NCBI GenBank assembly: GCA_963969365.1
Contig: OZ017760.1
Location: 1 to 64,000, forward strand
DNA length: 64,000 bases
Direction: 5' to 3'
DNA from: Asterochloris sp. CNOR1
Lineage: Eukaryota; Chlorophyta; Trebouxiophyceae; Trebouxiales; Trebouxiaceae
The notes beneath the pieces are model-generated. The model had not been told where the DNA came from, did not search any database, and was given only the letters and a program-made list of their open reading frames with translations. Positions 6,169 through 63,965 of this stretch are shown piece by piece. The position numbers were made by a program, and so were the translations under genes. How positions within the stretch are numbered: the stretch's first letter is position 1; each line of letters begins with the position of its first letter.

Positions 6169-8669
6169 GCTATCTTCAACTTCATGTCCTGCTCAGCAGT
6201 GGCCATGGCCAAGATGTATGGAGGCAGCAATGCGCTGCTGGTCACAGGCCTCATCATGGTGGCCCACATGGTGAGCTGCCCGGGTAGCCCAGCAGCAGGC
6301 ATCCTGTTGCATCTTGTGGCAGATTGCACCCACATTCAGTAGGCAGCTCTACACTGCACGCTGCTGTGCAAAGTGTACCGTGCTGCATCTCAGCCCACAG
6401 ACTGACTGCCACAGGCGCCAGTCCACTGCACTGTGCACATGCCTATCTATGCCCACATAGGCAGCACAACACTGTCCTGCTTTGGTGAGCACAGCCTGCA
6501 GTCGCCACCTGCAGTCAAGATGTCAGCTGTGCATCCCATCAGCGGCACACCCTGCACAGCGATTGCCAACTACCTGCACATAAGTGAAGTGCTGGATGCT
6601 GTCTGCAACTGCTGCTATAGACACTGCAGGCTCCATCAGCGGCGCCCGCATTTGAATGAATGCCTTCTGAAATCAGGCAGACCGACTACCGGCCATGGTC
6701 TGCAGGTGCTGCTTCCCATTGTGATCTACACGGCAGGCCCCATCAGCGGCGCCCACTTCAACCCCATGGTGACCAGCGTGTTTGTGGCCACGAGGTTGCT
6801 GGTGAGCTCAATCTAGACTTGCCTGCGCCTAAGCTGAACTGGCCTGTTGCCTGTCTGAGCTGATGCCATTGACAGGACCCCCTTTTGGAGGGTGTTTGCT
6901 TGGCCACCAGGGTGCTGGTGAGCTGTGCAGGTCTTGTTTGACGCAGAATGGCTTGCATGGCCTGCTGGTCGGCCACTCAGTTGCCTGCCCGCATGCGCTG
7001 CACCTCAACAGCTGCCAAGCTGTACTTGAGGAGTGTGGCCATCAAGTCGCTCACCAGCTCCTGGTGGGGGAGCCAAGACCTGCACGCATGCTGGGTGGAA
7101 GTGGCCAGCTGGGTCCTGGCCAGGTGCCGGATGTGGGCACTGCAGCTCCTCAAAACCTGCCGACAGCTACGCTCAAGGATGGGCTGAGGCTCCCCACTAG
7201 TGATGTGTGGTGCAGCCTTCTACTGATCCTGTCTTGTGTTGCTGCTATGCCTCACACCATCCCTTCCTGTGCAGAACGCCACCACTGGGGCCTGCTACAT
7301 TGTAGCCCAGTGCTTGGGAGGGATCGTGGGAGCAGCTGGAGCCTACTTCAGCTTGCCAAGTGAGTGCCTGTCGAAACCTTGTAAACCAATGAGTCCTCGG
7401 CTTGTATGCAGCGTGCTGTATGACGCCAGGACTGGCTGAGGAATAATGTCCTCCTACAGCCAGACCATTGAGCATTGACAGTGTTTGGGGGCCCCTCCAA
7501 ATTGAGTGCAGTTTGGTTTGGCCATCCAAGCCTGTTGTCGTGGGGCGATGCCAGCGCTCAGAGAACACAGTGCAGGCTCTGCCTACTCTCCAAGCTTGCT
7601 GTTGTGCTGTCTGCAGCCTCCATGCAGCAGGTGGGTTTTGCTGGTGTTCAGGGAGTACCCATGGACCACACAGTCGCCCAGGTGAGCCACCTGCATCTGT
7701 ACCAAATTAGTTCTGCTCTTTATGAATAGCCATTGGGCCTGCCAGGCGATGACATCAGTGCAGCCAGCCAATCTGCGTTCAGAATAAAAAGGGGAGACCT
7801 TTCTTTGACTGCTGCTGCAGGCTTTCATGGGCGAGATCTTTGCATCATTCTTTTTCATATTTGTGCTCTTTGGCATGGTCATTGACAAAAGGTGGGCCTG
7901 TGCTGAGCTTGAAGGCTCTGCAAAAGGAGATTGACGCGCTCATACTGGCTGCCCGCTGCCGTTGTGGATGTTCTTGTTCAGAGTTGCAAGCCGCGCATCT
8001 CTGATAGACAGGATCTGCGTTTCTCCAGTGTGCAGCTTTCTGTGGTTCTCCTGTGTTTTTCAGAGCTGTGCTTCCCCGCAAGCCCTTGCCTTCTGAGCAC
8101 TGAGCTTAACTTACATGCTGCCCTTGAGAAATGCTGCTGCCACAGTGACCTGCCTGTGCTGGCATGCAGGGGCTGGGGCAAGTTTGGGCCCCTGGCAGTG
8201 GCTCTAGCCATCGCATTTGACATGTGGGTGCTGGGCCCTGTCAGCTCCATGTGCATCAATCCAGCCAGAGCCCTCGGCCCAGCTGTTGTCAGCGGGTGAG
8301 CCTCTGCATGTTCATGGCACTTCTGTACAGGTCTGGGCCCTGCGTTCACGGTGCACCTCCTGCGACCTCGCGGGACACCTCCTTGGGGGATAAGTAATGG
8401 GTTTAAGTGCCAGGAGTGCTGGCAGCAACAGAGGACTTGATGAGCCACAGCTGCGTCAATGGTCCACATGCATAAGCACTTCGGCCTGCACAGCGGGGTG
8501 TGTCCTGTCTGCTCACTGCAGGTACTGGGACCACCACTGGATCTGGTGGACGGCCCCATTCATCGGAGGCTTGACAGCTGGCAAGCTTTACAAAAAGTTC
8601 TGGCTGCCCAAGGAGCAGCTGGCAGGACTGATCCCCAAAAATGTAGCCCGTCACTTGAAGTCGAAGTGA
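6169..8669 (+). CDS. Aquaporin / major intrinsic protein, 5' end unresolved
   Basis: A multi-pass membrane channel for water or small neutral solutes. In-phase exons are 6169-6270, 6706-6801, 7275-7359, 7617-7681, 7821-7891, 8170-8295 and 8522-8669 (TGA), all with TGCAG or GCAG acceptors and GTGAG-like donors except the one after 7891 (GTGGGC). They encode the second helix leading to the first pore loop (GPISGAHFNPM), the third helix (YIVAQCLGGIVGAAGAYFSL), the fourth (GEIFASFFFIFVLFGMV), the fifth and second pore loop (MCINPARALGPAVVSG), the sixth helix and a basic tail. The first pore motif is Asn-Pro-Met rather than Asn-Pro-Ala; the second is canonical NPA followed by Arg, the selectivity-filter arginine. 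The resolved exons give about 230 residues against a family norm of about 250-300, so one or two 5' exons are missing. Substrate cannot be deduced. Confidence 0.9.
6627..6925 (+). repeat. Decayed copies of aquaporin pore-loop exon
   Basis: At 6627-6655 the intron contains GCAGGCTCCATCAGCGGCGC, a near match to the part of the exon at 6706-6801 coding for AGPISGAH, followed by a TGA in that frame. At about 6888-6925 a second piece repeats the end of the same exon (VFVATRLL) with its GTGAGC donor. The two fragments flank the intact exon on both sides, suggesting local tandem duplication followed by decay. They would not contribute to the spliced message. Confidence 0.7.
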
Positions 8670-9590
8670 AACCAGACAGCGCGAAAGTCTTGCCCCAGAA
8701 CGTTTGGAACCACCGTGAAGTCTTCTGAATAGTTGTTTGAATACCCACCTGTGAATTGTGAATTGCGTCCCTCGCCCTGACTTTCATTCCCCTGTGTGTT
8801 GACGCAACGAGATGACTTACAAAGCAAGACTTAGACACGCAGGCTGGAGTTACACTCACTCCTCTGCTTCAGCAAGGCAGCTGGGGCTGATGAATTGCCC
8901 TGCAACTGTCTCGCAAATGCTGCTGATAACACTTCTGAAGTGTCCACCCAGATGTGGATACGCATGCAGAACAAACAGAAAGAGGTTGGGACGGGGGTTG
9001 CCATCAGGCTTGGTGGGGAGGAGCTTGCTGATGCCATCATCCCAAAGGGCAGCTGCCTGCAGCTGCCTGAGCGCAACATGTAATATGGGAAAGGCGATCC
9101 CTTTCCAGAGCCCACGCTTGCCCAGCTGTCCTAGTAATGCTCTGCAGGCAGCAAAGCAAGGGGTAAGACACACCAAAGGCATCTTTGCCATGCGACCAAC
9201 ACCTGGAACTAGTAGCACAGGCTGATGAGCGGCCTGGGGACTGCAGTACTTCTCAGCAGACCTGATGAGCTGCAGGTGTAGCACCGCTGGCAGCAGCACT
9301 CATCACAGGTAGTGCTCTCACTCAGTCCCAAGACCCAGCCCGACATAGAGACCAGACTAAAGCTTAAGAAGCACTGTAGATATGGTGTTGAAGTACGCTT
9401 TAAGCCCTTGTGCATGGCCAGCAAGCACATGTTCAAGCTTGTATGAGCAATCTATCAATCGAGTGGCCAAAGCTGCGTGAGGTACTCCTGACAACAAAGT
9501 CAAAGTTCAGATAGTCACTTGCTCAACAGCCAACTTTGGTAGCTGCAGTTCTCAATCTCTGCCTTGACACCACAGTCACAGCCCAGGTAG
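8670..9590. other. Intergenic, convergent 3' ends
   Basis: About 0.9 kb between the aquaporin stop (plus strand) and the stop of the RGG/GW-rich gene (minus strand). It should hold both 3' untranslated regions. No further gene, RNA or repeat array was recognised. Confidence 0.5.
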
Positions 9591-12500
9591 TCATTCAGGC
9601 GTCAATTCACCTTGGTGGTCTCCCTCTGCAGGCGGCGCCACGAAGAAGCCGGCATCGTGCGCCATCAGCCTGAACTTGGTCCTGCGCCGCCCCCTGGGCC
9701 CCCCACCCCTTCCTCCGCGTGCACCGTCATGGTGGGATTCTTGGCCAGAGCCAGAGCCTGCAGGGCAGTGAACCAGGATCGTGACACAGCAGCAGCAAGC
9801 ACAAGGTGCCAAGCTGCAGGCAGGCGTCACGAGTCGTCCAGCGCAATGTTTCAGCGAGCAAATGAAGGGGCAGAGCAGCAGACAAGAAAAGGGTAAGATT
9901 CCAGCACCCCCAAGGGACCTGAAGCAGTCACCATGTGTGATGCAGCACTGCCTGTAATGCTGGCCATGGATTGCCAGGAGCGCAGACAAGCAGCCCGCTG
10001 CCAGAAGCTCAGAGCAGGCCGCAGCTGCCCTGGCAGGAAGCAGTGGCAGGCTGTGCTGGTTGTGAGCCTCCTGCAGACCAAAAGCTGGGGTTATCAGCAT
10101 TGGCTGAGGCTGGCAGCAGGCAGCATTGACACTGAGCCGCCTGCAGGTGCAAGAGGTGCTGGGGCAACCTCAAAGCAAGGAGCAGTAACAGGCAGCACCA
10201 GAGATGACCCGACCGCACTCCTGTGGGACGCCAAGGCCAGTACCATAAGGCAGGCGACAGCCGCAGGCTGCACCTGTGGGCACCTGCCTGCTGCTGTGCC
10301 ACCTTCACATTAGACCATGAATCATAGCCCTGCAGGGTGGCTGGCCTCAGATCCACTCATAGCGGCAGGCCGGGACCAGAACGGTGCAATACAGCTGCAG
10401 CTGCCATATCCCCTCCCTGAAGCCCTCTGCAAAGTGCTCAATCAAAGCAGGTGCAGGCTACAAAATTGCTGGCACCTGCAGGTTGACACAGTTCCTCTAT
10501 TTGCAGCGTGCTGAGGCTGACGATGGGAGCCTGACAACACGAGACTTGCCAGCAGCTCACCATCACAGCCACAGCAGTCATTGGAGTTGCAGCGAGCCCC
10601 GGGGTCGCCTGGGCCATGCCGGTCTCTCAATATGCGCCTAGGCTCAATTGCATCCTTGGCCCACACGAGCACATCACAAGCTGTGCCTGACATCTCACCC
10701 TTGGAGCTGCTGCAGAACCCGGCAAAGCATCTCAGTCCTGCCTATCAGCCAAGTGCCATTATCACACCTGCCGGTGGCTGACTGCGTGCAAACAAAAGCA
10801 TCGCCCAGCAGCTCACCATCAGAGCCACCGTGGTCGATGGAGTTGTTGCGGCCCCCAGCATTGCCCAAGCTGCGCTTGTCGCTCAAGTTGCGCTTGCCGT
10901 CTGTAGACTCGTGAGACGATCGCTGGCGCTGTGGGTCCTTGGCAGCTGCGTCTATGCTGGGGAAGTCCTCCAAATTTATCTTGACTGCAGGGGTGTCCCT
11001 CTACAGGCACAGGCAACATGTCTGAGAGGAGCTTGAGAGCCCCAGCGCTCTGTGCAAAGCTCAGAATGGGGCAACGTCGCTGGTCTAGATGCAGACAGGG
11101 AACATGGATGCCTAGCTTGAGCGTGCTGGGGTTGGAGCGATCTTGCTTGGCTGCCTGCAGGTAGAACATTTGGGTGTCTAGAAAGCGGCTCTCTGTGCAG
11201 CAGCAGGTCAGGGCAACGTTGCTTCTCTGCATGCAGGCAGTAAGGGTGGATTTTTAAGAGAGGCCCTCTGTCCAGGCTCAGGTCAGGGCAGCGTTGCCTC
11301 TCTGCATGCAGGCAGTGAACGCTGGGACCCTTTGATGGCCTGAGACCTCAGCACCTGAGCATTCATGCTTGGTGTGGAGGTCCTTTGGGGTTCAGATCAG
11401 TGAGAGGGCCGTCTCTCGATCAGAGCCAGCAGTAGGGTTTGTCATGCTCTGCGACGCAGTGGGGGGGCCCCAGAGGAAATGGGTTCTTAATGACGTCCAA
11501 GCATTGCAATGACGTTCAGCACCCTATGTGCCACCCAACACAGGTCTGAGAGATTAATCAGGAAGGACACGCACCTCAGCTGTGGCCCCACCCCCACGCG
11601 CCACCCCTCCAAAGGCATCGTGCCGCTGCTCCAGCTGGAGCTGGCGCTCGCGCTGCTCCTCTCTAAATATCAGATTCTCGCTCTCCTGCAGGGACAGTAA
11701 AGACAGGACATCAATAGCTGCAGGCAGCGTGAAACTGCTCAAGCTGGGTGTTCAAGAGTCACACTCTCCTGGAGGGCAGCGATGCAAAACTTGCCAGCAG
11801 CAGCACTTTGCCAAAGCATCTGGCACCAGTACAGTCGCTCTTGCAAGGGCAGCCTCTCAAGGCAGCTGTGTCAGCAGCTAAGGCTGCTCCTCCTGGGACA
11901 CAAGATCTCATCTGCCAACCCGCATCAACTGCCCAAGCTACCGTTCACAGCGCAGCAGGTAGCCTCCACAGAGCACCAAGCTGAGGGGGGCTTGTGGCAG
12001 CTATTTGCAGGTGCGCGACAGGCTCGGCCTCCGCATCAAGCTGCCCACCGTAACACCTGCTGGACAGCAGAAGGCCCGTCCCCAGGCTTGCAGCCCATTT
12101 CATGTCTCGCAGGAAGCTGGCATGTTTAAAAACCCGTCTCGGGGCCCCTTTCCCCCTTGACTGTGAGCTCCGTTTGCTGGCCCGACAGATGCGCAGCAGG
12201 AGGGTGAATGTGGCATGTACCCCAAGTATATTATTCCATATGTCCACCCCCAACCTGAAGGCGCGCACATCAAGCTCTGCATTCCATCTCTGCTGCCTGG
12301 TAGGGCGCCAGCAGGCAGCCAGCATGTTGATGACATCTTTGTGGTGCCCCCACCTGCAGGCGGGCGGCGAGCTCTGCGTCCTTCTTGTGCTGTCTGGCAT
12401 CACGCTCGCGGAGGGCTGGCCGCTGAGTTGGCTGCGCCTGCCTCAGCCCCAGCTCTTCCTCCTGCAGGGAAGCACAGGCATTTCACAAACGAGATCTTGC

Positions 12501-15500
12501 GATGTAGTCTTTGAGTGCCAAAGCCCTTTGAGGTGGCTGCAGGGTGAAGCAATGCATCATTAGACACACAGTCAGAGGCCTCAGCCTTGCTCTACCACCT
12601 GCACACGAGCGCAGGCATGTCACAGGCAGCGTTATTCAATGACAACTGGAACGTCAGAAGCGCTGGTTGGTGCCAGCTGCTGAAGTGACATTTGACTTCT
12701 GAACAGATGCAGAAAAATCTTCCATGTCTGACCTGCAGCTGGCGCGCCAACCTCTCATCCTCAGCGGCCTGCCTGGCACGGCGCTCGACGTCTGCGCTGC
12801 GCCCCTGGCGCCTGCGCTGGTCTTCCTCCAGCTGGAAGGCATTTGCCAGGGCAGCATCAGCCGCTGCCAGGGGGTCTGCAAGTAGCAGCACTGACTGAAG
12901 GGCAGAGCCCTGCAGCTGCAATGTAGTTGCTTTGGCTAAAGGTTTCACTCCGCGCTGATCATCGTGCTGGAAGGCACAGGCCAGGGCAGCCCTGGCAGCG
13001 GCATGGGAGTCTGCAAGCAGCATGCAGCCACTGGTGGGCACAGCTCTGCTACAGCACCGCAGTGAACTTGGCTTGAGCCTGTGCTGTTCCTCCTTCTTAT
13101 GGAAGGCGTGGGCCAGGGCATAGGGTTGCAGGACAGCAAGCGGTTGACATTGACATGATCTGCGTGAAGTGCTTGTGTGGAGGCCGCGCTGTCAGGGGCA
13201 CAGGTAGCACCAGCCGCAGCTTGTGCTCCTAGAGTGTGAGCCACCACAAGCAAACGCAGTGTTGCCAGCGTATAACCAGTCAGGGCAGGCAGACACTGAA
13301 CCTACCCTCGCCCCTTTCGTAAGCCTCTGCCAGGGCCTTGGCATACGCCTCGTCTCGGCTGGTGTCAGGGCGGGCCATGTACCTGGCGTGCAGCTGCTCA
13401 TTGGTCACCGCACTTTGCTGAGCAGCTGCCAGCGCCTGCAGTAGGAAGGGCCTCAGTCAGCCACACTTGCTGGCCCATGGCATGAGATGCAGCAGACTCA
13501 GGGAGTTAGCACCTGCAGCAGACCACTGCACTTGCCAACATGTGGCAAGGGGTGCAGCAGGCCATGGAGAGCCTGCAGCGCAACTGCTCAAAGTCTGTCA
13601 CCCATCACCCAGTGTAGGACAGTGCAAAACATGCAGAGGGGAATGAGGCCATGAAAGGCTGAAGCAGATTCCACCTTAGTGCTGATATTGCCACCTGTGG
13701 CTGTTCACATGCAGGCAGCAAGGTCAAGTCACTTGGCAGGACTGTCAAATCCTGCAAACACACCAGGCCAGCCTGCTGCTGCCATCTGTGGCCGACCCTT
13801 GCAGCTGCCAGCTCTGAACAGCCTCCAGCCAGAACATGTTTGGTGCCCACCCCTCTCGCAAACGAGGTGACATTCCCTATGAAATCATCAGGAGCACACC
13901 TGCTCCTGCCGAGCTCTGGCCGCCCGCAGATCTGCTGCATGCTGCTCCTGTCGACTGCCAGGAGCCAGTCCTGGGCCGGCAGCTGGTGGGGTGAGCTGCT
14001 GCTGAGTGTGACCCTGGGACGGCACATGCTGCTGGGGCAGCTGCTGCTGAGCGTACAGCTGCTGGGGCGGCGGCTGACGCTGAGCATACGGGGGCAGCTG
14101 CTGTTGCTGGGGCGGTGGCTGCTGTTGCGTGTGCCCCTGCTGTGACGGCTGCTGCCCCAGCGGCTGGGCCTGATAGGAGGCTGTGTAGCCTGACCAGTCC
14201 TGCAAAAGTAGGGCCAGGATGCTCAGCTGTGCACTGCACCCCTAGCACTGCAGAAGTTTCCCTGCAGGAAGCACAGCAGAGTGCAACTCAAAGAGTGCAA
14301 ATGCTTCAGCCTTGGCTTGAGGGATGTGCTATTGTAGCCATGCTGTTGGGCAAGGATGCACGGCGCAAAATACACAGGCACACCTGTGCCCAGAAGGCAG
14401 CAGGCTTGGCTCATGTCATTCAGGGAGGGGCCCGTGACAGTGAGGCAAAGCAATGTTCTGGGCCTGCCTGGGTGTCAGGGGCTTGAGGTGGCGGCTGCTG
14501 CACCAAAGTGGCACCAGCAGGCATTGCAGGAGCTGCTGCAGCATCACGAGGCCGGGGCTTTTGCAGCTGCTGGGGAACAGCAGCGCCGCCTGTGCTCTGC
14601 AGGGGCTGCCGTGTGGGTGTGGCATAGCTGATGGCAGGAGCCGGACTCTCCTGCTGCTGCTGGCGCCGTGGGGGAGTGTCATAGGTGGTGGCAGGGGCTG
14701 GGCTGTCCTGCTGGTGCTGCTGCCCTGGGGCCGCAGCATGGGGAGGATTGGCGATAGGGGGAGCGGTGCTCTCCTGCTGCTGCTGCTGCTGGTGCTCCCT
14801 TGGGGCCGCAGCATAGGCCGTGGCAGCAGGTGGCCCACCGATCTCCTGCTGCTGCAGCTGCTGCTGCCGCTGGTGTTGTGTGTCGTAGGCCATGGCGGCG
14901 GTGGAAGCGGCACTCTCTTGCTGCTGCAGCTGCTGGTGCCGCCGGTGGGGTGCGACATAAGCCGCAGCGCCGGGGCCACCTTGTGTGCGTGCCCGGTCGG
15001 TGGCATCATCTGGCAGTGGGGTCCAGGCGAGCGCTGTCTGGCCCGGCCTCTGCTGAGCACCCGGGTGTTGTGCTGCTGGAGGCTGGCCGCTGGACTGGTA
15101 TGTTGCTTCTGGAGGCGGGGCCTGCCTGGGGGGGCCAGATCCTGGAGGCGGGGCCTGCCCCTGCTGCAGGTACGGGGCCTCTGGGGCAAGGGACTGAGCC
15201 TGAATCTGCTGGCAGCTGCGAGCTCCAGGGCGGGGGGTGCGGGCAGCATGACCTTGGCCGTGCGGCGCTCCGTACGGAGCCTCCGGGACCTGCGTATGGG
15301 GAGCGAGGATGGGGACTTCCTGGCTCCCCTTGGGGATGTGCAGAGGAGCGGGCAGCATGCGATTGGGCTGGCTGGTTTGCAGGGTGCTGGACAGCAGGGC
15401 GGTGAGGTTGGGCATTCTATGCTGGGGTGAAGTGCACCTCAGCCTGCCCTTGCTGGTGGACAGTATGGGCTGGCCCCTGGTGGCTGGCCCCAGGGTGCTG

Positions 15501-22228: not shown

Positions 22229-25200
22229 CTGACAGCAGGCAAGCCTCAAAGGGCGGCGCAGGTGCCCCGGCCAGGTCAAAGTCAACCGCCACCAGCGCCC
22301 CGCTGGCCTGCCCGTGCCACGCGGCTGCAGGGCTGCGCATGAGGGCTGCCGCGTTCAGCTCGTCAGAGGCGTCCGGGGGAAGAGGGGGGCTCAGGCTGCC
22401 CGCGTGCAGCAGAGACAGCACGCTTGCAAAGCGGACCTCTGCAGTGCAGGGCAGATGGGAGTGGTGGTCAGAGGAAAGATGGTGCGTAGGGCTGCCTGTG
22501 TGACAAGGGTTCCTCAAGAAGTGGAACGCTGGAAGAGCGCCCGTCTGCATGTAGGGCACAGACAGAAGCAACAATGGGGCGTTTGGCTGTCCCTGAACAC
22601 CAGAGATAGGCTGCTGGCACAGCGTATGTCAGCAGCACAGTTTACACGGGGTGAATGATGAGAAGCGCATCAAACATGCAGCAGGTTGATATTTGCTGCC
22701 AAAATGCACAAGATACAGCTTGCGTGCAAGCGGACCTCTGCATCAAGGCACAGCATGCTGTCAGACAGAGGCAAAAGCACCAGCACCTAGATCATCCGCG
22801 GGCGTGCACCTGAGATCGCAAGCTGGTACGGCTGCCCGGCTTCAAGAGCAGCTGCTTGCCTATGGCATGACCAGGCCCATAAGCATGATGCACCTCGGCA
22901 CATCAGCCAGTAAGGCCAAGGAGGATAGGCTTTGGAGGGGCAGGCCACGTTTCTCTGCCCTGCATGACCTGCAGGTCTGCCCCTCTCCTGTCTCCTGCTT
23001 GGACGAGAAGTCGCACACTGCAGCAGCTGTGCAGGCGCCAGAAGGCACACATCCAAGATTCAGCCAGCGGAACCACGCAGGACCCCGCAGCCTCCATTCA
23101 TGCCCTCACCTAGACGCATGTGCAGATGCTCAGGTTGAGCAGGCTTTCCTTCTGGCCCCCTGCTTGCGACTCCAGGCAGCCAGGCCCTAAGGGTTGCTTT
23201 CAACTGACGGAGGCTGCCCCAGTTCTACAGGTAGAGCAGGACTGTTGGGACGCAACCTGCAGATTGGCTTCACACAAACCCCACACACCTGCACTGGCTT
23301 GGGAGGCGCCTGCTCAAGCTCTCCAGCCTATGCTGGCAAGGTTGGCCGAGCAATAAGAGTACTTCCTTGCCTGGAAGCACTTTCAGATCGCTGGGCAAAG
23401 CAGGCCCCTCATCAAGCTCGTCAGATGCTTAGGCGGAGAAGACCCCTGTTGCTGCTGTACAGGGCTTTCCCCACCTGGGCTAACTTCAGATGCTCAGGCA
23501 AAGCAGGCCCCTCACCAAGCTCGTCAGGGGATGGGGCCTGCCTCTGCGGTACAAAGCTTCATCACCTGGGGCTGAGTCAGATGCTCAGGCAAGGCAGTCC
23601 CCTTTTGTGGCTTCTCGGGATGAGGGCTGCCTCTGCCGCTGAGAGCTTGCTCACCTGGGGGCAAGTCTAGGTGCTCAGGTGGAGGAGTCTCCCGTTCTGG
23701 CTCCTCAGGGTTCGGGTCTGCCCTGGGTCCGTGCTGCCGCACCCGCCCAATGCCGTGCTGTATGGCGCTCTGCGCAATGCGTGCCAGGATCGACTTGCGG
23801 CTGCAGTACCTAAAAGAGCAGGCCGCTTGTCAGCTGCCATGAATCAGAGCATGAACGTCACAGGTTTACTGTGACAGGCCAGGTGCCGCACACCCAGCTG
23901 CTACAGCACCTGCAGGACGACCTGAGCTGTCATCACGAGTTTGTGCTGAGGAATGGCACTTGAAGGCTGCTGACCAGACAGGCCTTCCATACTGTGCGCT
24001 GCCCGCCAGGATCTCAGCATCAAAGGCTGCTTCTTGCAGGATTTCCCCTGTGGGTCACATATTATCAGCAGCCCAATGCAACCCCCTTCCCATCGACTTC
24101 CTCTGCGGCATGGTGACCTGGACTTTCTGGATGGACTGGTTAGTTAGAGAGCGACACACACGCACGAGTGTTCCGCGGTTGTCAGCGACGTGGGTGTTCG
24201 GAACCAGCAGCCGGGTCGCTGGCCGTCCACCACTAGTTCCGCACAGAACATCAGAGCGGCGGGCGCTGTTCTGGCTGTTTGTTCTGAGAGCAAGCGCCAT
24301 CGGCAAGAGCAAGTACAACACGCCCGCCCAGGTTCAGCCACACAGGGCTCTCTCTCAAAGCTGGTCTGCAGAGACGGCAGCAGGCAGTGCTCACTGGGGT
24401 TCCTCCTCCGGAGTGCTGCCCTCTGCAGCCTCAGGGCCCGCCTCTTCCAGCTGGGACCACCCAGCAGCGCCCCAGCCTGGCTGCTGCTGGGGCTCTGTGC
24501 ACTCCCCTGCGCCCAGCACTGCCATGCCTGAGTCAAAGCCTGCCACGCCAGGAGCGTCCGAGCCCTCTGACACAATTGCCTTGCTTCTGGACTGCACGCT
24601 GACTGCCACCAGGCTGCCTGAGGGGCTGCGTCTGCTGGCGGGGCCATCCTGCCGGGGGGTGGCGGGCTCGCTGCCACCGCCAGAAGCACTGTCAGTGCCC
24701 CCAAGCGCAGCAGCCGCAGCGCCACTGGCCTTAGCGGCAGTGTCATGGCCCTCAGCAGCAGCAGTGCCACTGTCAACAGCAGCATTGCCACTGGCAGCAG
24801 CGTCAGCAAATTCCCCACCCTCCTGAGCAGCAGCCTCAGCCCCGGTCTTGATCCTGAGCAGCCGAGCATCCCTGCTGTGGTTGGTGCCTGCCGTACCGGG
24901 CTCGTTCAGCCCCTCGCCAGCACCTGGGCTGACATTGCCTGCCTCAGCCAGCGAAACATGTTCAGCAGCCTGCCCGCCCTGACTGCCGGACCTCTCCTGA
25001 CGGCCAGCGGCAGGGGCTGCGGCCTCAGCAGCTGCCTGAGATGTTGGGCTGCCCGACTCACCATGGTCCCTGCAAGCAACAGCAGTTTTGGTGTGAGACA
25101 GGCCTGGCCAGCAAAAGTGGCATGGGCCATGCCAGCTGGGCTTGGGCCGCCTTATGTAGCCAGCCAGGCTCGTCAGCCTTTCTGTTGGTGATGTAATCCT

Positions 25201-40200: not shown

Positions 40201-43200
40201 CTCAAGCAGCTCGCTGGCAGATCTCATACCACATATCTGAACGCTGCTCAGAGGCCCCACTGCTAGCATCAGCCTGCCCGTCAGGCTTGACATCCTGTGA
40301 TGGACTGTTGAAACGTGACAGTTGAGCAGGAAGCTGACGCTGCAACCCAAGTAGTTGACAATCTGAAACGCTGCAATGCACCAGACATGGTTCCCAGTCA
40401 CAATGCTTGTAGCAGCAAGGTGTTGCGGGCACACTCCAGCAAGCCTTTAGTGGCCTGCCATGACTCAAGTTGCATGCCAACATGTTGCATACAGTACAGC
40501 TAGCAGTAGGCTGCTGAGTGAGCTTGGTCTGTGTGTACTCTCAGAGCAAGCTCTGAAGAGCAGCCAACTGCTTTGCTGAGCCCTGACCGCATCTTGGCAC
40601 CAAAACACAGAGGGCACCTGAGGGCTGCACTGCCAATGCCAACAAATGGAACAGATGGCGTATATCTACAGGGTGGCTACTGCAGCTGTGGTCAGACATG
40701 CAGCATTCAAGGAATACCCATGAGGCCCCAGAGCTAGAGAGGCTTCCACTGCCATTCCCAGTCTTCAAGGGAGCCACTTGCAGCCTGCACATTGGTGGGC
40801 GGTGCGGAGATCAGGTAACATGGCCTTCCCTCACCCTCATCACCGGTGCAGGTCTAGGAGAGTCCCTGTCTGAGACCAACTGGTTACCAATGCGACAGGT
40901 GCCCACATGGTGCCCAGTGAGCTGCTACTTGACTGCCATCTTGCCTCTTGCCAGGTTGAACACAGCGCAGGTTAACACATGCCTTAGCTGCACAATGCAA
41001 GCCTGTTCGCAAAGCAGGTCCAGGTCCAACACTGCTTTGCAGAAGGCATGCGTTGTGCAGCTTTGGCATGTCACCTGAAAGGGCACATCTGCAATGTGGA
41101 AAGACGTGTGCTGACACTGACATTTGAGACGTGTGCTGACACCATCAGCTCCATTGCGTCTTGCTGTCTCCTGTGATGAAGAGATAAGATGCTATGGAGT
41201 TGAGTGGTGTCACGTCACCTGAGCAGGTCACCTGAGCAAAAGAGGAGGCCTTCGGTGGCCTGGAGGCTCATGACATCAATATCATGCTGACACACAGACC
41301 ATGCACTGCCAAACAGCCACCTGAAAAATCCAGCTCCAGTGCTGCTTTGCACTGGCCTGCATAAGGCAGTTGTGGCTTGTCGCCTGACAGGGCAGATTTT
41401 CATTGCCTAGAGACATGTGCTGACGCAGAACCTGACACCTTACAACTCCATTCGTGCCGTCTTTTGTGATGGAAACGGCAAGACGCTATGGAGTCGAGTG
41501 GTGTCCTGTCACCTGAGCAGGTCACCTGAGCAGGAGGGACTACTGGTGCTAAAGCAGCACCCCACTAACTCGTTACGCTTGAGCGTGCAGGGAGTCCAAG
41601 CGCGGACTGCCTGGCGCAGCATCTCAGAACTGGGGGGCCCTGGGCTGCAGTCTTGGCCGCAGCCTCGCCAGATGCAAGAGCGCTGTGCGGGTTAGGTCCC
41701 AGCAGGTGGCAGCCCTGACACATTCAGGCTGCGTCGAGGCTTTGAGGTATTGCCACTCCTGACAAGTCGAAACGGACATGTGAGGGGTGGTGCGGCTTTG
41801 CGTGTATCACGCACATGACTGTGTGAGCACAGCAGCATGGCATGGACGTCAGGCTAACGTGCATCTGCCTGACAATTATTGCATGCTGATGCGACTGCTG
41901 TGCTCACACAGTCATGCATGCACCACCTGACCTGGCATGGTCCAGCCAGAGGAGCAGGCAGGGGTTCCCGACTTGTCTCTTCAAAGTCCCCAGCAGGCAA
42001 CTGAGACTTGTGGACTGCAGGCAGTGTGGAGTCCCAACAAAGCAGACTGGAGGTTGAGCGGCAGAAGCAGAGCTCAAGGCGCATGTCTGACGCTCCCAGT
42101 CTCTGCAATATGCTCCCAGTCTCTGCCGTATATGCTCCCAGCCTTTGAAACGAGACCTCTACGACAGCCGCAACATGCTCTGGTACTTGTACTGAGCCCC
42201 TACCACCAGATTCCATTGTCAGAGGCCACGACAGCTTGCAGCAGCTGAGCAGTAGCTTGGCCCCGCTGCAGGCAAAGCACCCAGCCCTAGTGTGGGTGCC
42301 CTTTCCTCTGAAAGCAGACAGCAGCAAGGCAAGGACTGACTGATCTCTAAGATGCCAGCATACCATAGGTCCCCCCTCCACCAATGGTGGAAAGACCCAA
42401 ACAGACAGATAGACACGATTGACTTGACTGCAGTCGATTGCCCATCAAGGGAGGTACGTCTTGAGCTGGTCAAAGGTCTTACAAGGACGCAATACCCTTC
42501 TCCTCCCCCTGATGCGACCAGCAGCAGAATCCGCAGTCCCCTGCTTGACCTGCTGTGAAGTCAAGAAAGGGACATGCCTGAAGAGACAGGAGGAAAGGTT
42601 CCATCATTTTGCCATGCATACTCCCCTCCAAAAGCCCAGGCCCAGCCATGCTCACCAGAAAGGTCAGCAGCACAAAGTCCTGCAGGATGGCCTCGAACTC
42701 AAGACTGTTCTTCTTCTTGCCCACGCGGCCGCCCGCTGGCTGTGTGGCAGAGGGGAGGCACTCGTCCCCAAAGGTGTTGACCCCCCAGTCCTGGTCAAAG
42801 TTGCCGGCAAAGACGGGGGAGGACGGCTCCAGCACGTCCCTGAACTCATGCTTCAGGTACTCTCGTAGGACTCCTATGTTCAGGAAGCACAGGGGCTGCG
42901 CTGCGGCCTGCAGGCAGCAGGAGAACCAGTCTTAACCCAGGCTGTAGGTGTTGTAGGACAAAAACACTGCAGCCTGCAAGGAAAGTCTTCAGCAGATCTG
43001 AGGAAGTGTCCCTGGTATTCATGCAGAGCTCACACCTTCAGGAGGCACAGAAGCTGAGCGGCACATGATAGGAACTACTGGGTTAGGTTTCAGGATGTAG
43101 GGGGAGGCGCATCCCAGCTTGCCATACCTGTGCAGGACTTGCGCAGATTGCGTGCAAGGTTGTCATGCTGCACTGCTTCCTGCATCGTCCAGAAGCAACA

Positions 43201-46200
43201 GCAGATTGTCTGTATGTAAGCCGAAGATACCTGCAGCCAGGCAGCTCTGCCTGCAGCCAGCTAGATGCAGTGCAGCAGACCTCACTCTGCGCAAGCAGCA
43301 GGCACTGCTGTCTGCCTTCCAGCAGCAATGCCTGGACGCTTCCCTGTGCGGTGCAGCAGACTTAGGCCCAAGCATGGCCTTGGTGCAGAGCACACTTGGT
43401 GATCACCCACGTGGTCAGGAAACACCATTGTCCACGAAAATATGGAGTCAGAGTCAAACAGGACGTCAGCCCCCATCTCTGCAACAAACGCCTTCAGCAG
43501 GCTGTGTGCTGCATGCACATCTGCGCAGCATGCCACAGCCCCGTGCAGGCCTTTCAGCGGCGCCTTGTAGGGTACAGCGACTTTGCGCGGCCCACATTTT
43601 AAGGCATGACTCACTGCCGACCAGGTGGCTGAGTTGACGTCGGCACCCGTCTCTGTGATGTGTGCTTCCAGGGAGGTCACCTCGCGCAGGATGCGGAAGT
43701 GGGGCTCCCGCGTCAGCAGGCCCAGAAGGATCAAGTCTGCGTCCTGCAGCCACCACAACAAACAAGCATATGACTGGTTACACTGTACAGGTGCAAGGCA
43801 GCAAGCCACCTGAATCCGCTTTGCATTTGCATTTGTTGCATGCGCGCGAATGGTGAGGGGATGTCAGTGACAGACAGGCTCTGCAGACTGAGGTCTTGAG
43901 GGCAAGAAGCGATGAAGTTCTGTCAGCCTGAACAGCTCAGGGCAGTGTCAGGCAGGCAGGCAGGCTGTACGGCAGGTCGTGGGTTGGCAGGCTGGCAATC
44001 TGTAAGGTTGGGCTTGAGCTGTGTGAATCCATTCTGTCTGGCTGCCAACATTTCACGGCATGTCAGCCACTAAGAGCTTGGCACCCTGGGCCCAGATTCA
44101 CGCCCAGACGAGTCCCCGCCACCCCCCACCTGGCCATAGATGATGTGGCGGGTGTTGGGGTCGTACTCTGGGCGTGTGCGCTGCTGCCGAATGAAGCGCA
44201 TGATCTTGTGTTCCCCTTCGCCGGGCTCGTTGGCGTCAGATACGATGATCTGCAGAATGCAGAGTCAGGCAGGTTGAGACCAAGTCAGAGTTTGTGCGCT
44301 GTCCTGCGTCAGGCCTGCTGGCAGGCAATCGACCTGCCGTGCAGGGAATGGCAGGGGTTGCAGGTTTGATGCCTGCAGCACAGACCTTGTGCCCAGGCCT
44401 GGCCTGCAACGATCTTGATTGACAGGACAAGCCTGGTGTGCTCAACTCCCCACCCCTGCACATGACCCTGGCCACCCACCGAGAGGTGCCTCCAACCCTC
44501 GTCGTTGACCAGCTTGATCGCAAAGAAGCGGCGCATCTCTGTGGCCAGGCGGGCCATGAACTCGGTGCCTGGAGTGATGATGTTGCTGTCAAAGTCGGGC
44601 AGGGCAGGGATGTCCAGCTTCCCGCCAGCCTGCCCCTCCATCTCGCGCCGTACCTGTGGGCAACAGAAGGCAAGGGTCCAAGAACAGCTTGGAAGGTGAG
44701 GGAAAGGGTGAATTTAGAGCACCTATTCTGCCCCTGCGTCTCCCCGCGTTTGCCACACCTGTGGACACCAGATAAGTTGTGGCGACGGCAGGTCTTTCCG
44801 CAGCCTGCTCGCCTGCTGCTGTATCACCCACAGCACCTGCAAGAGCCAGGCAGCAGTCTCACCTCTCAAGTGCCAAGTTGCGGCTGCCAGACCCATCTGC
44901 TGGGAGCCGCCACCCATTGAGGCCTCCTGATCCTTCCTCATTGCCTCACCATGGGGAATGCATATGCACCAGTGCAGATGCCTGAGACCTTAGAAGGGCA
45001 GCTGCGCTCACAGCATGCCACAGGCCCCCCTGCCAGACCAATCTGCTGCCACCTGCCAGACTGATAGGTTGCAGGACGCCCCTCACCGTGGCCTCCAAGC
45101 TCTTCCGCTGTGCTTCGAGGTGGGCAGCCATGAAACGCCGCGTCCGCTGCTGCGCCATCTTGGCCAGGGGGGCCACCCCGTCGATCGCCATCATCACCAG
45201 CCTCTGAGGCCTGCACAGCAGCCATGAATGCAGCACAGTCAGTGATGACTCCATAAAGCCAGCTCAAGGAGAGGTACAAAACATTTGGGCCAGGCATTAC
45301 CAGCAGCTTGGGCCTGCAGGGCAGTTATGTGCAGCGCACTCAAAAGCAGCAGCCACAGCCATGTCATGCATGCAGCAGTCTCAGCGCCAAGCAGAGCGCC
45401 AAGAGGCAAGCTAGCCGAACTTGGGTCAAGTACATGGCTGCTCGAAAAGGCCTCTGGGGCCTGCAATGCGTCCATGCATGCAGCAAAGTTAATAGCGACC
45501 ATCAAGCTCCCAGCAGACGTGGGCAATGGTTGAGGTGAGCCCCACCAGCAAAGAGGTCTGCAGGGCAGTAGTCTTGCCATGTGTTTCAGATCAGCCCAAG
45601 CAGAGGTGGGTCTCCCTTGAGCCGTCACCACATTGCCAGGCCTGCCGGCCCCAGGGCAGCCATGCGCAGCAGACCCAGCGGCAGCAGCCACTTACGTAGT
45701 TCAAGCCAGCTCAAACGCCTTATTGAGCAACGTATGACCACCCATGGGGACCCAATTGCGGCAGAGTGTGACAACCTGAGTATGTCGAAGCAGGGCATGC
45801 TGGCTGCCTGCAGCACTAGCCGTTGTGGCCTGCAGGTGCACAAGGCAGGGCCTCTGCATGCCCCAAACATGCAGTACATGACCGCCGACGTGGCTTGCCG
45901 AAGACTGCAACTAGGCGCCCAGTCAGTATTCACGCAGCTTAGAGCAAAAGGGCCCTGCTGACCAGCCCACGTGTAGAATCCTGAGAGGGGGGTCCAGGCA
46001 GGCCTCTATCAGACCAGTTCCCACTGCTTAGAGTCATGCAGCAGGCCTGCCTGCATGTGGGCTCGGGGCAGCCTCATGACTCAGGTAGCTGCTATGGACC
46101 CCGCTGGCCCACCTGCCCATTTGAAAGAGGGCTGTCAGGAAGCGATATTGTCTCAGCAGGCCCAGCACTGACAAATCGAGCAGAGCCACCCTGCTGGTCA

Positions 46201-58333: not shown

Positions 58334-58377
58334 TGTAGCGTTGCCTGCACAGTCTGCCAGCAGATGTCTGCCCGGCC

Positions 58378-58786: not shown

Positions 58787-59341
58787 GCCTTGAGCCATCA
58801 CAACTCTGTCAATACTACACAGCTTCTGATTGGGGGTGTGCCAGATGCTCCACCTGAGCATGCCACCTCATCAATTGCGAGGTGAGCAATTGAAAGGTTG
58901 CTGGAGATATCTAGCGCTGCTCACCTTGCGCCATCGCAACTCTGTCAAAATACTACACAGCTTCTGATTGGGGGTGTGCCAGATGCTCCACCTGAGCATG
59001 CCACCTCATCAATTGCGGGGTGAGCAATTGAAAGGTTGCTGGAGATATCTTGCGCTGCTCACCTTGCGCCATCACAACTCTGTCCAAATACTACACAGCT
59101 TCTGTTTGGGGGTGTGCCAGATGCTCCACCTGAGCATGCCACCTCATCAATTGCGAGGTGAGCAATTGAAAGGTTGCTGGAGATATCTTGCGCTGCTCAC
59201 CTTGCGCCATCACAACTCTGTCCAAATACTACACAGCTTCTGTTTGGGGGTGTGCCAGATGCTCCACCTGAGCATGCCACCTCATCAATTGCGAGGTGAG
59301 CAATTGAAAGGTTGCTGGAGATATCTAGCGCTGCTCACCTT
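58787..59341. repeat. 138-bp satellite, four copies
   Basis: The landmark GGGGGTGTGCCAGATGCTCC starts at 58832, 58970, 59108 and 59246, an exact period of 138 bases. Copies two to four differ at only a few positions; the first has a diverged left edge. Each unit contains the near-palindrome CAATTGCGAGGTGAGCAATTG. As 138 is divisible by three, the plus strand is open across copies two to four as a repeated 46-residue frame (HLSMPPHQLRGEQLKGCWRY in each), which closes the frame only after 59630. No start, promoter or splice evidence supports translation. Confidence 0.95.
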
Positions 59342-59429
59342 GCCTATTGAGGAGTTGCGCCATATGGCATGCATGCCTGACAGGCGTGCATTGCAGCAAC
59401 AGTCTCAAGCGTGCATCAGCTGCAGCACC

Positions 59430-60640: not shown

Positions 60641-60748
60641 CAAATTATCAATTGCATTCTTCTGCAGATGCACTTGAGCCTACAGTGTAGGCACCTGGCT
60701 GCATCTCATATTTCACACAGCAGGAGCGCTCGATCTCGGCTGGTGACC

Positions 60749-63700
60749 ATGGCTGGGAAAGCTTCCAAATTGATGGTTGGCGGCCATGTAGTTGAGGGCA
60801 TCTCCATTGCTGGCCAGGCAAGCTTTTCAGAGCATCCACCAAATTGCATGGCGGGCCACATCATCAGGCCCGTCACTCACAAACTCATGCAGCCCACTGC
60901 TTGGCTGGACCTTGACACACAGCAGCCAGTTTGGGAATGCCAGCACACGCTGCACAGCAATCTCAGACACTCAGAAAATCTTTTCTTGTGCCTGCAGGAA
61001 TTTTCATTGTGCTGCCTCAACAGACTTTGTGGGATGCATACAGGATGCATCTTATGCCTCTGGACTCTGGAGCCTCAGCATTCAAGCACGCTCAAGTAGG
61101 CTTGCTACATGCTGGTGCAGGTGACCATAGCGCAGATTGATTTTGCACACGCCTCAAGCAATGAGGCTGTACCAGCCTCCCCTGAGGTGCTGCAGGAGAC
61201 CAGCATCATGCTGCCCAGCAAAGACATGTTGGTGCATGGCAGCAGTGTGCCCCCACCCAATCTTATTTCAGCAGAACTTCATTTTCAAGCACATGTGCTC
61301 CTACAGGTGCAAGAGAAACTGTCGCCGCCACTGAGGGTTCCTTCCAGCAGGTCACAAAAGCTACAGATTCGCCAGCTTGCAATCACACTTTCCCCTGATG
61401 CTGCACCAGACCATTGTGCTGACCGCTGCAGGCATGGTTCGATGCAGGGAAGTGCCCCTAGCCAGCTGGCTTGTTGTCACAGAGCCTTGCGATTTCCTCA
61501 TCCCTTTTGCAGCAGGAGACGGGGAGGTGCTCCCAGCGGAGCGTGTACAGCCAAGGGTCGAGTCTTGCAGCAAGTACCTCTACCCTTTTGCTGCAGGAGA
61601 CCAGCCTTGTGCTCAAGCACTGTGCTGACAAGTGCAGTGGTGGTGTTGGTGCCCCCAGCCAGCTGGCGTCTTGTCACAGAGCCTTGCAGCATGTACCTCG
61701 ACCTTACTGGCTGCAACCTTATTGCTGCAGGAGACCAGCATCGTGCTGCCCAGCGCAAACGTGGTATTCGACACAGGGAGATGCCCCCAGCGCAGCGTGT
61801 TTGCACACAACGTGCTCATCACGCACTGCCACCTGGACCACCTGGGGGGACTGCCACACCACATTGCCAGCAGGTTGGTATTTTTGTGCAGTGCTGCACT
61901 GGCAGTGGAAGAGCTGGGGCAAAACAGGGCCCTTGTGAGATTCACGTGCCCCTCTGCCAGCGAGTGGGGCTTGACAAGGTCAGCTTGAAGTTGTGGCAGG
62001 AACAGCAGGAGAGCCTTGCCTGCGCGAGCACATGGCAGGCAGATCCAGGGATGGCAGTGTGACCCAATGCCTGGATCAGCCAGTCAAGTCCGAGCAGTCA
62101 TGTGGCCAGCAGGTGCTGTTTTGAGGCGATGAGGCTGCAGTGCTCACTTGGAGGCAGCATGAGCATTGGCAGCATGTGCTGGGCTGCAGCCAGGCCCAAT
62201 GGCTGTCTTCATGCAGATGCACAAGCAGCCACACAGGACTTTGACCTGCCCAGCATGCTGCCTCAGACCAAGGGCCGGCATGTCTTCGTCAAAAAGTGCC
62301 TGTGGCTGCCCTGCAGGCAGATGCAAAAGCTGCCTCCCACGCAGGCCTTTGTGCCACCCAGTATGCTGGCCCAGACGGAGGCCCTCTTGGCAGCATATCG
62401 CGCTTTTGAGCACAATGACATGCCCTGCGATGTCCACGGGATCGCGATCGGCGAGGACCGCCGCATAGGTGAGGCGCCTTTGCCATGCATGCATTTGGCT
62501 GGGAGTCAGGCGTCCCCAGCAGCCATGAGTTCCGTGCCAAGGCAGCCAGAGGCTACACAGCTTGCAATATGTGCATCTGATGGTCCCAGTTAATTGTCCT
62601 CAGAAGCCCACCACATGTCCACTCTGCTGTCAGCATGTCCAAGTCTTAGTCTAAAGGGCTCTTCTCCCGACAGTCAGATCCTTGCCATTGTATCCTCTTT
62701 TGTGCGCAGGCAGCTGGACGGTGCGCTTTGTTGCCTTGTCTCCTCACCAGGCTGCCTGCTGCCTGCTGTTTCCTTAGCACCAGAGCTTCTCCTGACAGCT
62801 GGACTTTCTCAGCAATGTCTCCTCTGATGTGCACAGGCAGCTGCATGTTGCGCCCCTTTGCCACCTGTCGCAAAGTGCAATTCCAGGGCTGCCTGCTATC
62901 CTTCAGACGCCACACCCTCTACCTTCAGTCAGACCTCCCCTCTGATGTGCGCAGGCAGCTGGACGGTGCGCCCCTTTGCGACCTGCCACACAGTGGCCTC
63001 CCAGGGGTACCTGCTGTCCTCCAAGCGCCAGAAGCTCAAGCCTGAGTGGCAGGGGCGCCCAGGCGCGGAGATCAAGGGGGCCAAGCTCGCCGGTGAGGTG
63101 CGCACACTGTCTGGAGGTGGCTACGGTCTGCACCCTGTGAGGGGGTTTCTGGTGTAAAGGTCAGGCTGGAGGCTGGGTGCTTAGTGCTGGGGCTAAGCTC
63201 TCGGACTGCTGTGTGTTGCATGTGCACATACACAGTCACTTTAGCTGCCCCTAGGCGGCGGCTAAGCTTGTCACTGAGTTGCCATGTGCTAACCCTGACA
63301 GTGCCTGCTTCTGAAGTGTGTTCAATGGCCTTGTGCAGCATGTTGTCGCATCCTGGGGTCATAGGTGCCCTTCTCTCAGAGATGAGTGCAGCCAGGCTTG
63401 CAGATTGGGCACACTGCAGGGTACACACATTGTCAAGATGGCTTCAGCCACGTCCACCCGAGCCAGGTAGCAGGGGTGGTGGTAGTTGCCGATGTGCTCA
63501 CGTCACAAATTTGCCTTGGCTTCTGAGGCGGCCGCCCTGTCCCTTGACAAGGTACAGGTTGCCCTCACAAGTCAAAACGTCACACTCTGCCTTGCAGCAG
63601 ATCACCCAAGAGATTTGTAGCAACAGGGTTCGTCTGCATCCTTGACTTTGTGCCTTCACCATTATCTGCCTTCTGGTTGCTGTGCAGGAGATCACCCAGG

Positions 63701-63846
63701 AGGTCACTGTCCCAGAGATCGCCTTCACCGGCGACACCACCACCGACTGGATCTCCATGCCGGGGAATGAGGAGGTTCTGAAAGCCAAGCTGCTGATCAT
63801 GGAGCTCACCTTCCTGGACGACGCAGTCAGCGCCGAGCATGCCAGG
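60749..63846 (+). CDS. tRNase Z, short form (plant TRZ1-like), truncated by window end
   Basis: This endonuclease removes the 3' trailer of precursor tRNAs. Resolved exons are 60749-60817, 61731-61873, 62317-62468, 62955-63097 and 63688-63846, in phase, giving 222 residues; the C-terminus continues beyond the window. The start MAGKASKLMVGGHVVEGISI fits the plant short form. Exon 2 carries FDTGRCPQRS and the metallo-beta-lactamase zinc motif ITHCHLDHLGGLPHHIASR. Exon 4 carries VRPFATCHTVASQGYLLSSK (the PFxTxHxxxSxGY block) and KLKPEWQGRPGAEIK. Exon 5 carries VPEIAFTGDTTTDWI with the metal-ligand aspartate and LLIMELTFLDD. Intron 1 has a GC donor (CAG|GCAAGC). The family's plant members are cytosolic (TRZ1) or plastidial (TRZ2); no leader is seen here, which suggests cytosol. 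Confidence 0.93.
61190..61665 (+). repeat. Four decayed copies of tRNase Z exon 2 start
   Basis: Intron 1 contains CTGCAGGAGACCAGCATCATGCTGCCCAGC at 61189-61218 and the motif CTGCACCAGACCATTGTGCTG at 61399-61419. A third piece at about 61509-61545 reads GCAGGAGACGGGGAGGTGCTCCCAGCGGAGCGTG, and CTGCAGGAGACCAGCCTTGTGCT is at 61592-61614. The true exon 2 at 61731 begins GAGACCAGCATCGTGCTGCCCAGC behind CTGCAG. A longer unit with AGCCAGCTGGC(T/G)T(C/G)TTGTCACAGAG at 61457 and 61662 gives a period of about 205 bases. Only the last copy keeps the zinc motif. Confidence 0.85.
62215..62290 (+). repeat. Decayed copy of tRNase Z exon 3
   Basis: GCAGATGCACAAGCAGCCACAC through GACCTGCCCAGCATGCTGCCTCAGACC (about 62213-62271) parallels the exon 3 start GCAGATGCAAAAGCTGCCTCCCACG through GTGCCACCCAGTATGCTGGCCCAGACG (62317-62378). 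Translated it reads DFDLPSMLPQT beside AFVPPSMLAQT. It lies about 100 bases upstream of the real exon. Confidence 0.8.
62705..62920 (+). repeat. Two decayed copies of tRNase Z exon 4
   Basis: Exon 4 starts GCAGCTGGACGGTGCGCCCC behind TGTGCGCAG at 62955. The same acceptor and start occur at 62709 (GCAGGCAGCTGGACGGTGCGCTTTG) and at 62833 (ACAGGCAGCTGCATGTTGCGCCCC). The spacing is about 122 bases and each copy is preceded by (C/T)CTCTNNTGTGC. The second copy still reads LRPFATCRKVQFQGCLLSFR, but the first is frameshifted after a few codons. Confidence 0.9.
63595..63640 (+). repeat. Decayed copy of tRNase Z exon 5 start
   Basis: GCAGATCACCCAAGAGATTTGTAGCAACAGGG at about 63597 parallels GCAGGAGATCACCCAGGAGGTCACTGTCCCAGAG at the acceptor of exon 5 (63688), about 90 bases upstream of the intact exon. 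Confidence 0.65.
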
Positions 63847-63965
63847 GTGATCCCCAGCAGGGTTGTATGCATGCAGCGCCAAGCATGCCAGGGTCAGCCC
63901 CAGTAGGGTTCTGTGCATGCAGCGCCGAGCATGCCAGGGTGAGCCCCAGCAGGTTCCTATGCATG
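63826..63965 (+). repeat. 46-bp minisatellite spanning the exon 5 donor
   Basis: GCATGCCAGGGTGATCCCCAGCAGGGTTGTATGCATGCAGCGCC is repeated three times with GCCAGGGT at 63841, 63887 and 63933. The first copy includes the last codons of exon 5 and its GTGATC donor, so the donor is triplicated (second copy GGTCAG, third GGTGAG). Confidence 0.9.

Follow-up and report, generated by a model that had tools for sequence, protein, structure and literature searches.

Introns of the green alga Asterochloris sp. CNOR1 carry decayed direct copies of the facing exon edge

We studied a stretch of 64,000 nucleotides (the window) at the end of contig C15 (OZ017760.1, positions 1 to 64,000) in the assembly of the green alga Asterochloris sp. 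CNOR1 (GCA_963969365.1), which has 56.38 Mb in 21 contigs. The window has a GC (guanine plus cytosine) content of 57% and starts with a telomere array of CCCTAAA. Its size, GC content, and richness in introns agree with those published for the lichen alga Asterochloris glomerata: a genome of 56 Mb, a GC content of 56-62% over most of the genome, and about nine introns per gene (PMC6652019). All eight of our gene models in the window match Pfam families: aquaporin (MIP), XRN_N, XRN_M (two models), amino-acid transporter, zinc dehydrogenase, metallo-beta-lactamase, and 2OG-Fe(II) oxygenase. Our subject is a feature of the introns of such genes, namely broken copies ("echoes") of the start of the adjacent exon with its acceptor, or of its end with its donor. 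A first-pass annotation of the window, made from the sequence alone, had noticed these copies and attributed them to small tandem duplications seeded at exon/intron junctions. We confirmed that introns carry decayed direct copies of the facing exon edge at a rate far beyond chance, both in the window and in three samples taken elsewhere in the genome.

The gene models come from a simple hidden Markov gene finder. Kinase and XRN segments defined by Pfam served as its seed, and it was then retrained on 264 kb together with 20 kinase loci. (The first run split the sequence too finely into tiny exons and was discarded; we used the second run.) The predicted set has 529 exons, with a median length of 121 bp, and the median intron is 304 bp. 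The splice consensus in the models is CAG/GTGAGC for donors and TGCAG/G for acceptors. One model in the window fuses an RGG/GW-type gene with the end of XRN. Besides the window (W), the samples are a 100-kb block A (C1:1000001-1100000), a 100-kb block B (C3:1000001-1100000), and the kinase loci. The kinase exons were defined by Pfam alone: 26 segments at 20 loci, drawn from among the higher-ranked of 131 listed matches, leaving out the first match (which has no intron inside) and matches with stops. At least 800 bp of flank was compared for each.

Local repeats in this genome are mostly direct. Comparing the window to itself gave 72 direct and 7 inverted repeats (score of at least 36, within 3.2 kb). 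At the same score and at lags of 60-400 bp, there were 17 direct versus 0 inverted repeats in block A and 53 versus 0 in block B. With the score lowered to at least 34, W, A, and B together contain 164 nonredundant direct pairs (lag of at most 600 bp) versus 30 inverted pairs (lag up to about 1,500 bp). Local direct repeats cover 5-10% of intron bases at a score of at least 34 and 6-13% at a score of at least 28; the corresponding values for inverted repeats are 0.1-0.8% and 0.8-1.4%.

Exons are more similar to their own introns than to foreign introns, so the reading of the copies as duplications that decay survives the comparison that the first-pass annotation had proposed for overturning it. 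Among 225 predicted internal exons, 36 matched their own introns at a score of at least 30, versus 1 for inverted matches, and 57 beat all 20 of their foreign-intron controls (10.7 expected). The kinase segments behave similarly: their mean best score was 28.6 against their own flanks, 21.2 for inverted matches, and 21.9 against other loci, and 7 of the 26 beat all 38 controls (0.67 expected). We then considered single edges: 472 of them (243 acceptor and 229 donor), from exons of at least 45 bp with a coding score of at least 8 and a facing intron of at least 100 bp, with the copy sought in the facing intron within 600 bp. At a score of at least 30, 73 of the 472 edges have such a copy; the reverse complement gives 0, and the introns of other genes lead one to expect about 0.8. 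All four sources contribute (12/77 edges in the window, 12/132 in A, 33/162 in B, and 16/101 at the kinase loci). At a score of at least 26, 96 of the 472 edges have at least one echo (78 have one, 13 have two, and 5 have three). The copies are also specific to the side of the exon: for 338 45-bp segments from the edges of exons of 110-400 bp, the near intron matched 59 times and the far intron once at a score of at least 24, or 26 versus 0 at a score of at least 30.

The shape of the pairs is that of head-to-tail duplication across an edge, unlike pasting from anywhere in the exon. Among the nonredundant direct pairs in W, A, and B, 76 join an exon to an intron: 62 of them cross the facing edge (33 acceptors and 29 donors), 1 crosses the far edge, and 13 have their exon arm within the exon, while random placement of the exon arm would give 22.8, 20.3, and 33.0. 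Lags are mostly 60-300 bp. When the two copies are compared at the lag of the pair, the zone of high identity spans about 18 bp of intron and 40-50 bp of exon, and identity falls to background beyond about 25 bp into the intron. In two places, 63828-63969 and 58788-59343 in the window, the whole unit is clearly repeated head to tail; the former, which runs across a donor, is a duplication that is still head to tail. In the other pairs without similarity in the intron part, that part has either decayed or was never copied.

Repeats within the same exon (score of at least 28) have a lag divisible by three in 9 of 10 cases, although a single array at 24.7 kb supplies three of the ten and codon periodicity may play a part. 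The lags of junction pairs have remainders 0, 1, and 2 in 18, 20, and 24 cases, and nonredundant intron lags of at least 60 bp have them in 12, 17, and 13 cases, leaving out window positions 13900-18300. In that stretch, all 12 local repeats that the models call non-exonic have lags divisible by three, and for this reason we take it to be, probably, missed coding sequence of the gene rich in Q, GW, and RGG. A frame test on raw non-exonic repeats (72/35/39) was rejected as biased by probable missed coding in this stretch and in part of block B.

Introns with echoes are longer than those without: the median length of facing introns, capped at 600 bp, is 486 versus 319 bp (p of about 1.5e-10), and the share of introns with an echo rises from 4% at 100-300 bp to 34% at the cap. 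The link to long introns that the first-pass annotation drew is thus supported. The greater length fits growth by duplication, yet longer introns also offer more room for echoes. The first-pass suggestion that echoes are a source of new introns was not supported. In a register test of 331 introns, within the limits of that test, there was no sign of intron birth by duplication: mean scores for own versus random pairs were 11.27 versus 11.05 and 11.72 versus 11.38, and 0 and 2 own pairs scored at least 24, versus 0.3 and 0.0 expected.

We think that ordinary local tandem duplication, combined with purifying selection, explains the echoes better than a process aimed at splice sites, with a probability of roughly 0.7. 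Small local tandem duplications, mostly with lags of 60-300 bp, would arise throughout the genome. Within exons, they would survive mainly if they keep the reading frame; within introns, they would be nearly neutral. Where a unit runs across one edge of an exon, the splicing machinery can choose the copy that leaves the protein unchanged, and the other would remain in the intron as a spare bit of exon with its splice site, lying upstream in the case of an acceptor and downstream in that of a donor. The spare copy and the intron part of the unit would then decay, while selection would hold the intact exon copy, so that similarity between exon and echo outlasts similarity between the two intron parts. 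Repeated rounds would lengthen introns. The data show direct orientation, local range, specificity for edge and side, presence in every sample, decay, and the link with intron length; we infer the duplication mechanism, which copy is the original, and that splicing ignores the echoes. Recurrent small duplication with decay of one copy, as the first-pass annotation had it, is supported, and seeding at the junctions is not needed, as tandem duplication with coding constraint already gives anchoring at the edges. Pairs that straddle an edge should stay visible for longer because the exon copy is conserved. In simulations of whole-unit duplications with substitutions, insertions, and deletions (ages in substitutions per site), one conserved copy gave a detection advantage of 2.1 for ages of 0.1-0.4 and 6.3 for ages of 0.2-0.5. 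Ages of 0.2-0.5 give 12, 27, 51, and 61 junction pairs over four falling bands of identity, with median lengths of 28, 36, 46, and 54 bp; we observed 7, 15, 18, and 22 pairs with median lengths of 38, 36, 44, and 57 bp. Since these ages reproduce the junction spectrum, short and fairly identical islands are expected from old duplications. We had also considered a short copy-and-paste of exon edges, prompted by the loss of identity about 25 bp into the intron; it was set aside because old whole-unit duplications simulate the same islands and because 18 of 58 echoes keep similarity in the intron part.

Another account is that exon edges are true hot spots, with duplication seeded at splice junctions by short motifs (TGCAG, CAG/GTGAG), R-loops, or template switching. 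We set junction seeding aside as the lead explanation and consider it unlikely, since the simulations at ages of 0.1-0.5 and the intron-internal counts do not call for it; it is kept as a rival. Real edges have echoes 3.2 times as often as placebo windows in introns (15.5% versus 4.9%; 1.7-fold in W, 3.2 in A, and 5.1 in B). Non-coding segments echo less than exons at a score of at least 30: 8.9% of 800 segments from introns (inverted 1.0%) and 10.9% of 800 from intergenic DNA (inverted 4.9%), versus 16.0% of the 225 exons (inverted 0.4%). These excesses favor seeding, but they are covered by the gain in detectability of 2.1-6.3 at ages of 0.1-0.5. In total, 62 pairs straddle a junction and 61 are internal to introns (six of these in the probably coding stretch at 13900-18300). 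The ratio is 38:13 in block B, which speaks for seeding given that uniform placement on the real gene map gives 0.71, and the opposite in block A (10:23; 0.58 if uniform); in the window it is 14:25 (0.49 if uniform). Start and stop edges, which have no splice site, also echo (1/10 starts and 1/12 stops at a score of at least 30, or 2/22, with 0 inverted), but this is a small sample and both are in block A. The data do not require a hot spot at junctions if the duplications are old. If ages instead run evenly from zero, the simulated advantage is just 1.35-1.55; seeding would then have to supply roughly the remaining two-fold, and an effect of at most about that size is possible. Less probable still is a specific form in which junctions are true hot spots in this lineage, with co-transcriptional or motif-driven copying of 20-90 bp around the edges into the facing intron, 80-300 bp away. 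If so, such copying would supply ready-made splice sites and drive intron growth across the genome. Several other observations weigh against tandem duplication with selection as we have put it, some of them in favor of seeding. All exons were predicted by a purpose-built gene finder rather than defined by RNA, and the junction and intron-internal counts differ between blocks A and B. The observed number of junction pairs relative to uniform placement is 0.6 at lags of 20-60 bp, 1.3 at 60-100, 2.3 at 100-160, 3.1 at 160-300 (about three times the expectation), and 0.9 at 300-600. The predicted median junction lag is 108 bp from the gene map or 335 bp from a cruder formula, versus 148 bp observed. 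In gapped alignments, only 18 of 58 echoes have similarity in the intron part (p < 0.05; about 3 expected), and for one of the 18 (edge 23655, lag 91), which has no usable exon mapping, the whole unit was counted. Echoes are also more centred on junctions than in the simulations: 62 of 75 pairs reach the junction, versus 74/147 for ages of 0.2-0.5, 192/308 for 0.1-0.4, and 187/247 for 0-0.6. No single age fits everything: ages of 0.2-0.5 give intron-internal ratios of length to lag of 0.11-0.24 (0.31-0.80 observed) and a junction-to-intron excess of 6.3, which is above that observed. With ages from zero, many young pairs of full length would be expected, but just 15 of 123 pairs are at least 92% identical.

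It is also conceivable, but very unlikely, that the echoes are functional, as alternative or decoy splice sites or as alternative exon ends under selection. An edge may have up to three echoes (score of at least 26), and four were found for the exon at 61731. When pairs were aligned across the junction, AG was kept in 24 of 30 echoes and GT in 19 of 22 (10 of the 62 pairs could not be aligned there), although alignments of this kind favor kept splice sites. This hint of selection for splice sites disappeared once the exon bases alone anchored the alignment. Of 68 edges at a score of at least 26, 43 have alignments that reach within 8 bp of the edge and 25 do not; 12 of 21 retain AG and 9 of 22 retain GT, with an exon identity of 0.84-0.85, and this retention is about neutral or below. 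Mismatches in the echoes are 18, 16, and 24% by codon position, a weak excess at the third position that is below what is expected of two coding copies, and the lags show no preference for multiples of three. Because splice-site retention is about neutral and because of these codon-position mismatches, the echoes fit neutral copies beside a constrained exon. By these two tests, and within their limits, there is no sign that echoes are kept as coding sequence, and the idea in the first-pass annotation that they supply alternative exons is not supported. Least likely of all is an artefact of gene prediction or base composition, in which the introns are misread exons or low-complexity sequence. 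Some tiny predicted exons do sit on echoes, the 13.9-18.3 kb stretch looks like missed coding (12/12 lags), and in block B the raw non-exonic repeats show a similar tilt (25/5/8). But the kinase exons, which were defined by Pfam, lead to the same outcome, almost no matches come from reverse complements or foreign introns, and Pfam matches confirm the aquaporin, XRN, and metallo-beta-lactamase models.

Within the window, the edge test at a score of at least 26 found echoes at 15 of 77 edges, in the aquaporin, XRN, RGG/GW-type, and metallo-beta-lactamase models and none in the amino-acid permease (Table 1). The strongest examples are the two aquaporin echoes (6621-6647 and 6889-6924), the metallo-beta-lactamase echo at 62818-62905, and the echo at 10549-10600. 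We also checked the positions that the first-pass annotation had listed, as 24 points (ranges were split), each with a 70-base window and a direct partner sought within 900 bp at a score of at least 30. Such partners exist for 17 of the 24 points, versus 15.7% of 300 random positions in the window (2.0% for the inverted control). The points that scored below 30 are 12945, 13075, 17053, 20030, 23370, 23450, and 61405. Six of these touch longer repeats (12814-12913/12952-13049; 12810-12853/13077-13120; 17042-17114/17193-17263; 23382-23631/23485-23722; and 61399-61462 at a lag of 329), and 20030 is unsupported, with a score of 25. Some listed points pair best with another echo instead of the exon (61660 with 61452-61490, and 63887 with 63922-63967). 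Three of the listed points mark genuine repeats whose status as exon echoes is unclear in our models: the repeat at 51480 (51367-51431/51459-51523) includes only 6 exon bases, and 28820 and 17053 are without a reliable exon edge.

Table 1. Exon-edge echoes, the intact copies they match, and associated repeats in the window
Feature	Position	Strand	Details
Upstream echo of the start of aquaporin exon 6706-6801	6621..6647	+	Intact copy 6728-6754, 25/27 identical, lag 107
Aquaporin exon with echoes on both sides	6706..6801	+	Gene model; Pfam MIP
Echo downstream of the end of aquaporin exon 6706-6801, including donor	6889..6924	+	Intact copy 6775-6808, 31/34
Echo of donor end of predicted exon 10817-11000 (RGG/GW-type gene)	10549..10600	-	Intact copy 10805-10855, 43/51
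Echo of acceptor edge 12875 of predicted exon 12733-12875	12952..13022	-	Intact copy 12814-12887, 55/71; second repeat 13077-13120
Echo of acceptor edge 22438 of predicted exon 22229-22438	22705..22742	-	Intact copy 22405-22443, 32/38
Repeat array, lag about 91-103, reaching donor edge 23655 of predicted exon 23655-23800	23382..23660	-	
Echo of donor edge 37435, predicted exon of XRN_M-bearing model	37342..37375	-	Intact copy 37428-37462, 29/34; absent from first-pass annotation
Long intron region of XRN gene with nested repeats, lags about 900 and 300 bp	38245..41532	-	Inferred from flanking exons
Echo of acceptor edge 45210 of XRN_N exon	45450..45480	-	Intact copy 45200-45230, 25/31; absent from first-pass annotation
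Echo of donor edge 46207 of XRN_N exon	45953..45977	-	Intact copy 46189-46213, 21/25; absent from first-pass annotation
Echo of start of metallo-beta-lactamase exon 61731-61873, with TGCAG acceptor	61188..61219	+	Intact copy 61723-61754, 31/32, lag 535
More echoes of start of exon 61731-61873	61399..61613	+	61399-61462, 61516-61546, 61582-61613
Metallo-beta-lactamase (tRNase Z-like) exon, intact copy	61731..61873	+	Model; Pfam Lactamase_B_2
Echo of start of exon 62317-62468	62200..62276	+	Intact copy 62303-62384, 60/77
Second echo of start of exon 62955-63097	62694..62726	+	31/33 to 62939-62971
Echo of start of exon 62955-63097, including acceptor	62818..62905	+	Intact copy 62936-63023, 71/88
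Echo of start of exon 63688-63846	63593..63612	+	Intact copy 63683-63702, 18/20
46-bp tandem array, 3.1 copies, from end of exon 63688-63846 across donor into intron	63828..63969	+	

The XRN-type exonuclease is apparently a single minus-strand gene of about 20 kb (26000-46858). XRN_N lies at 43.6-46.9 kb, and the models have XRN_M at 34.9-38.3 kb and again around 26-29 kb, the latter placed by exon order. Nested repeats occur in long stretches between the XRN exons in the models, at 30.8-33.6 and 38.2-41.5 kb. The 2OG-Fe(II) oxygenase gene (587-2139) is less than 250 bp from the telomere array. The repeat at 58788-59343, between the zinc dehydrogenase and metallo-beta-lactamase genes, consists of a 138-bp unit present four times head to tail, at 97% identity; it is a young duplication, unlike the others, which are mostly old.

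About one in six of the sampled exon edges retains the mark of a duplication across it, and such marks can be counted to follow how introns may lengthen in a compact algal genome. Because the ratio of near to far matches (59 to 1) is a control internal to one genome, it could be used in any annotated genome without a second one, and such counts could compare how much intron length stems from local duplication across genomes. The echoes also amount to a standing stock of spare splice sites beside the real ones, and how the spliceosome ignores them becomes testable.

Messer and Arndt reportedly described short insertions as local tandem duplications in 2007. According to one study, local tandem duplication is the main source of short insertions (PMC2374710). 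The repeats that we describe are likewise direct and local, but their units are tens to hundreds of bases long, they are mostly old, and they are read through their effect on exon edges. Tandem duplication is also a known route to new introns (PMC4974935, PMC3443670, PMC2891723). That route likewise duplicates exon sequence together with splice signals and, in a case in potato, copies an intron-exon structure. In intron gain of this kind (Rogers/AGGT), a new intron arises, while the ends of the 331 introns that we tested lack similarity in register, and existing introns here seem only to lengthen. Internal gene duplication is said to be widespread in eukaryotes (Gao and Lynch, 2009); the copies here differ in that they are partial and decayed, seem to be non-coding, and are anchored at one edge. 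Duplicated and mutually exclusive exons also place exon copies in neighbouring introns, whereas here only exon edges are copied, and the copy shows no sign of coding constraint. Introner elements disperse the same element, with splice sites, over many introns; we found no such dispersal among the 472 edges, where 73 matched their own intron versus the 0.8 or so expected from the introns of other genes. Among the literature matches listed, in which subscription papers are thinly covered, there was no description of a genome-wide pattern of exon-edge echoes. Relative to those matches, what is newly counted here is the genome-wide set of duplications that straddle exon edges and decay in introns, with a near/far control.

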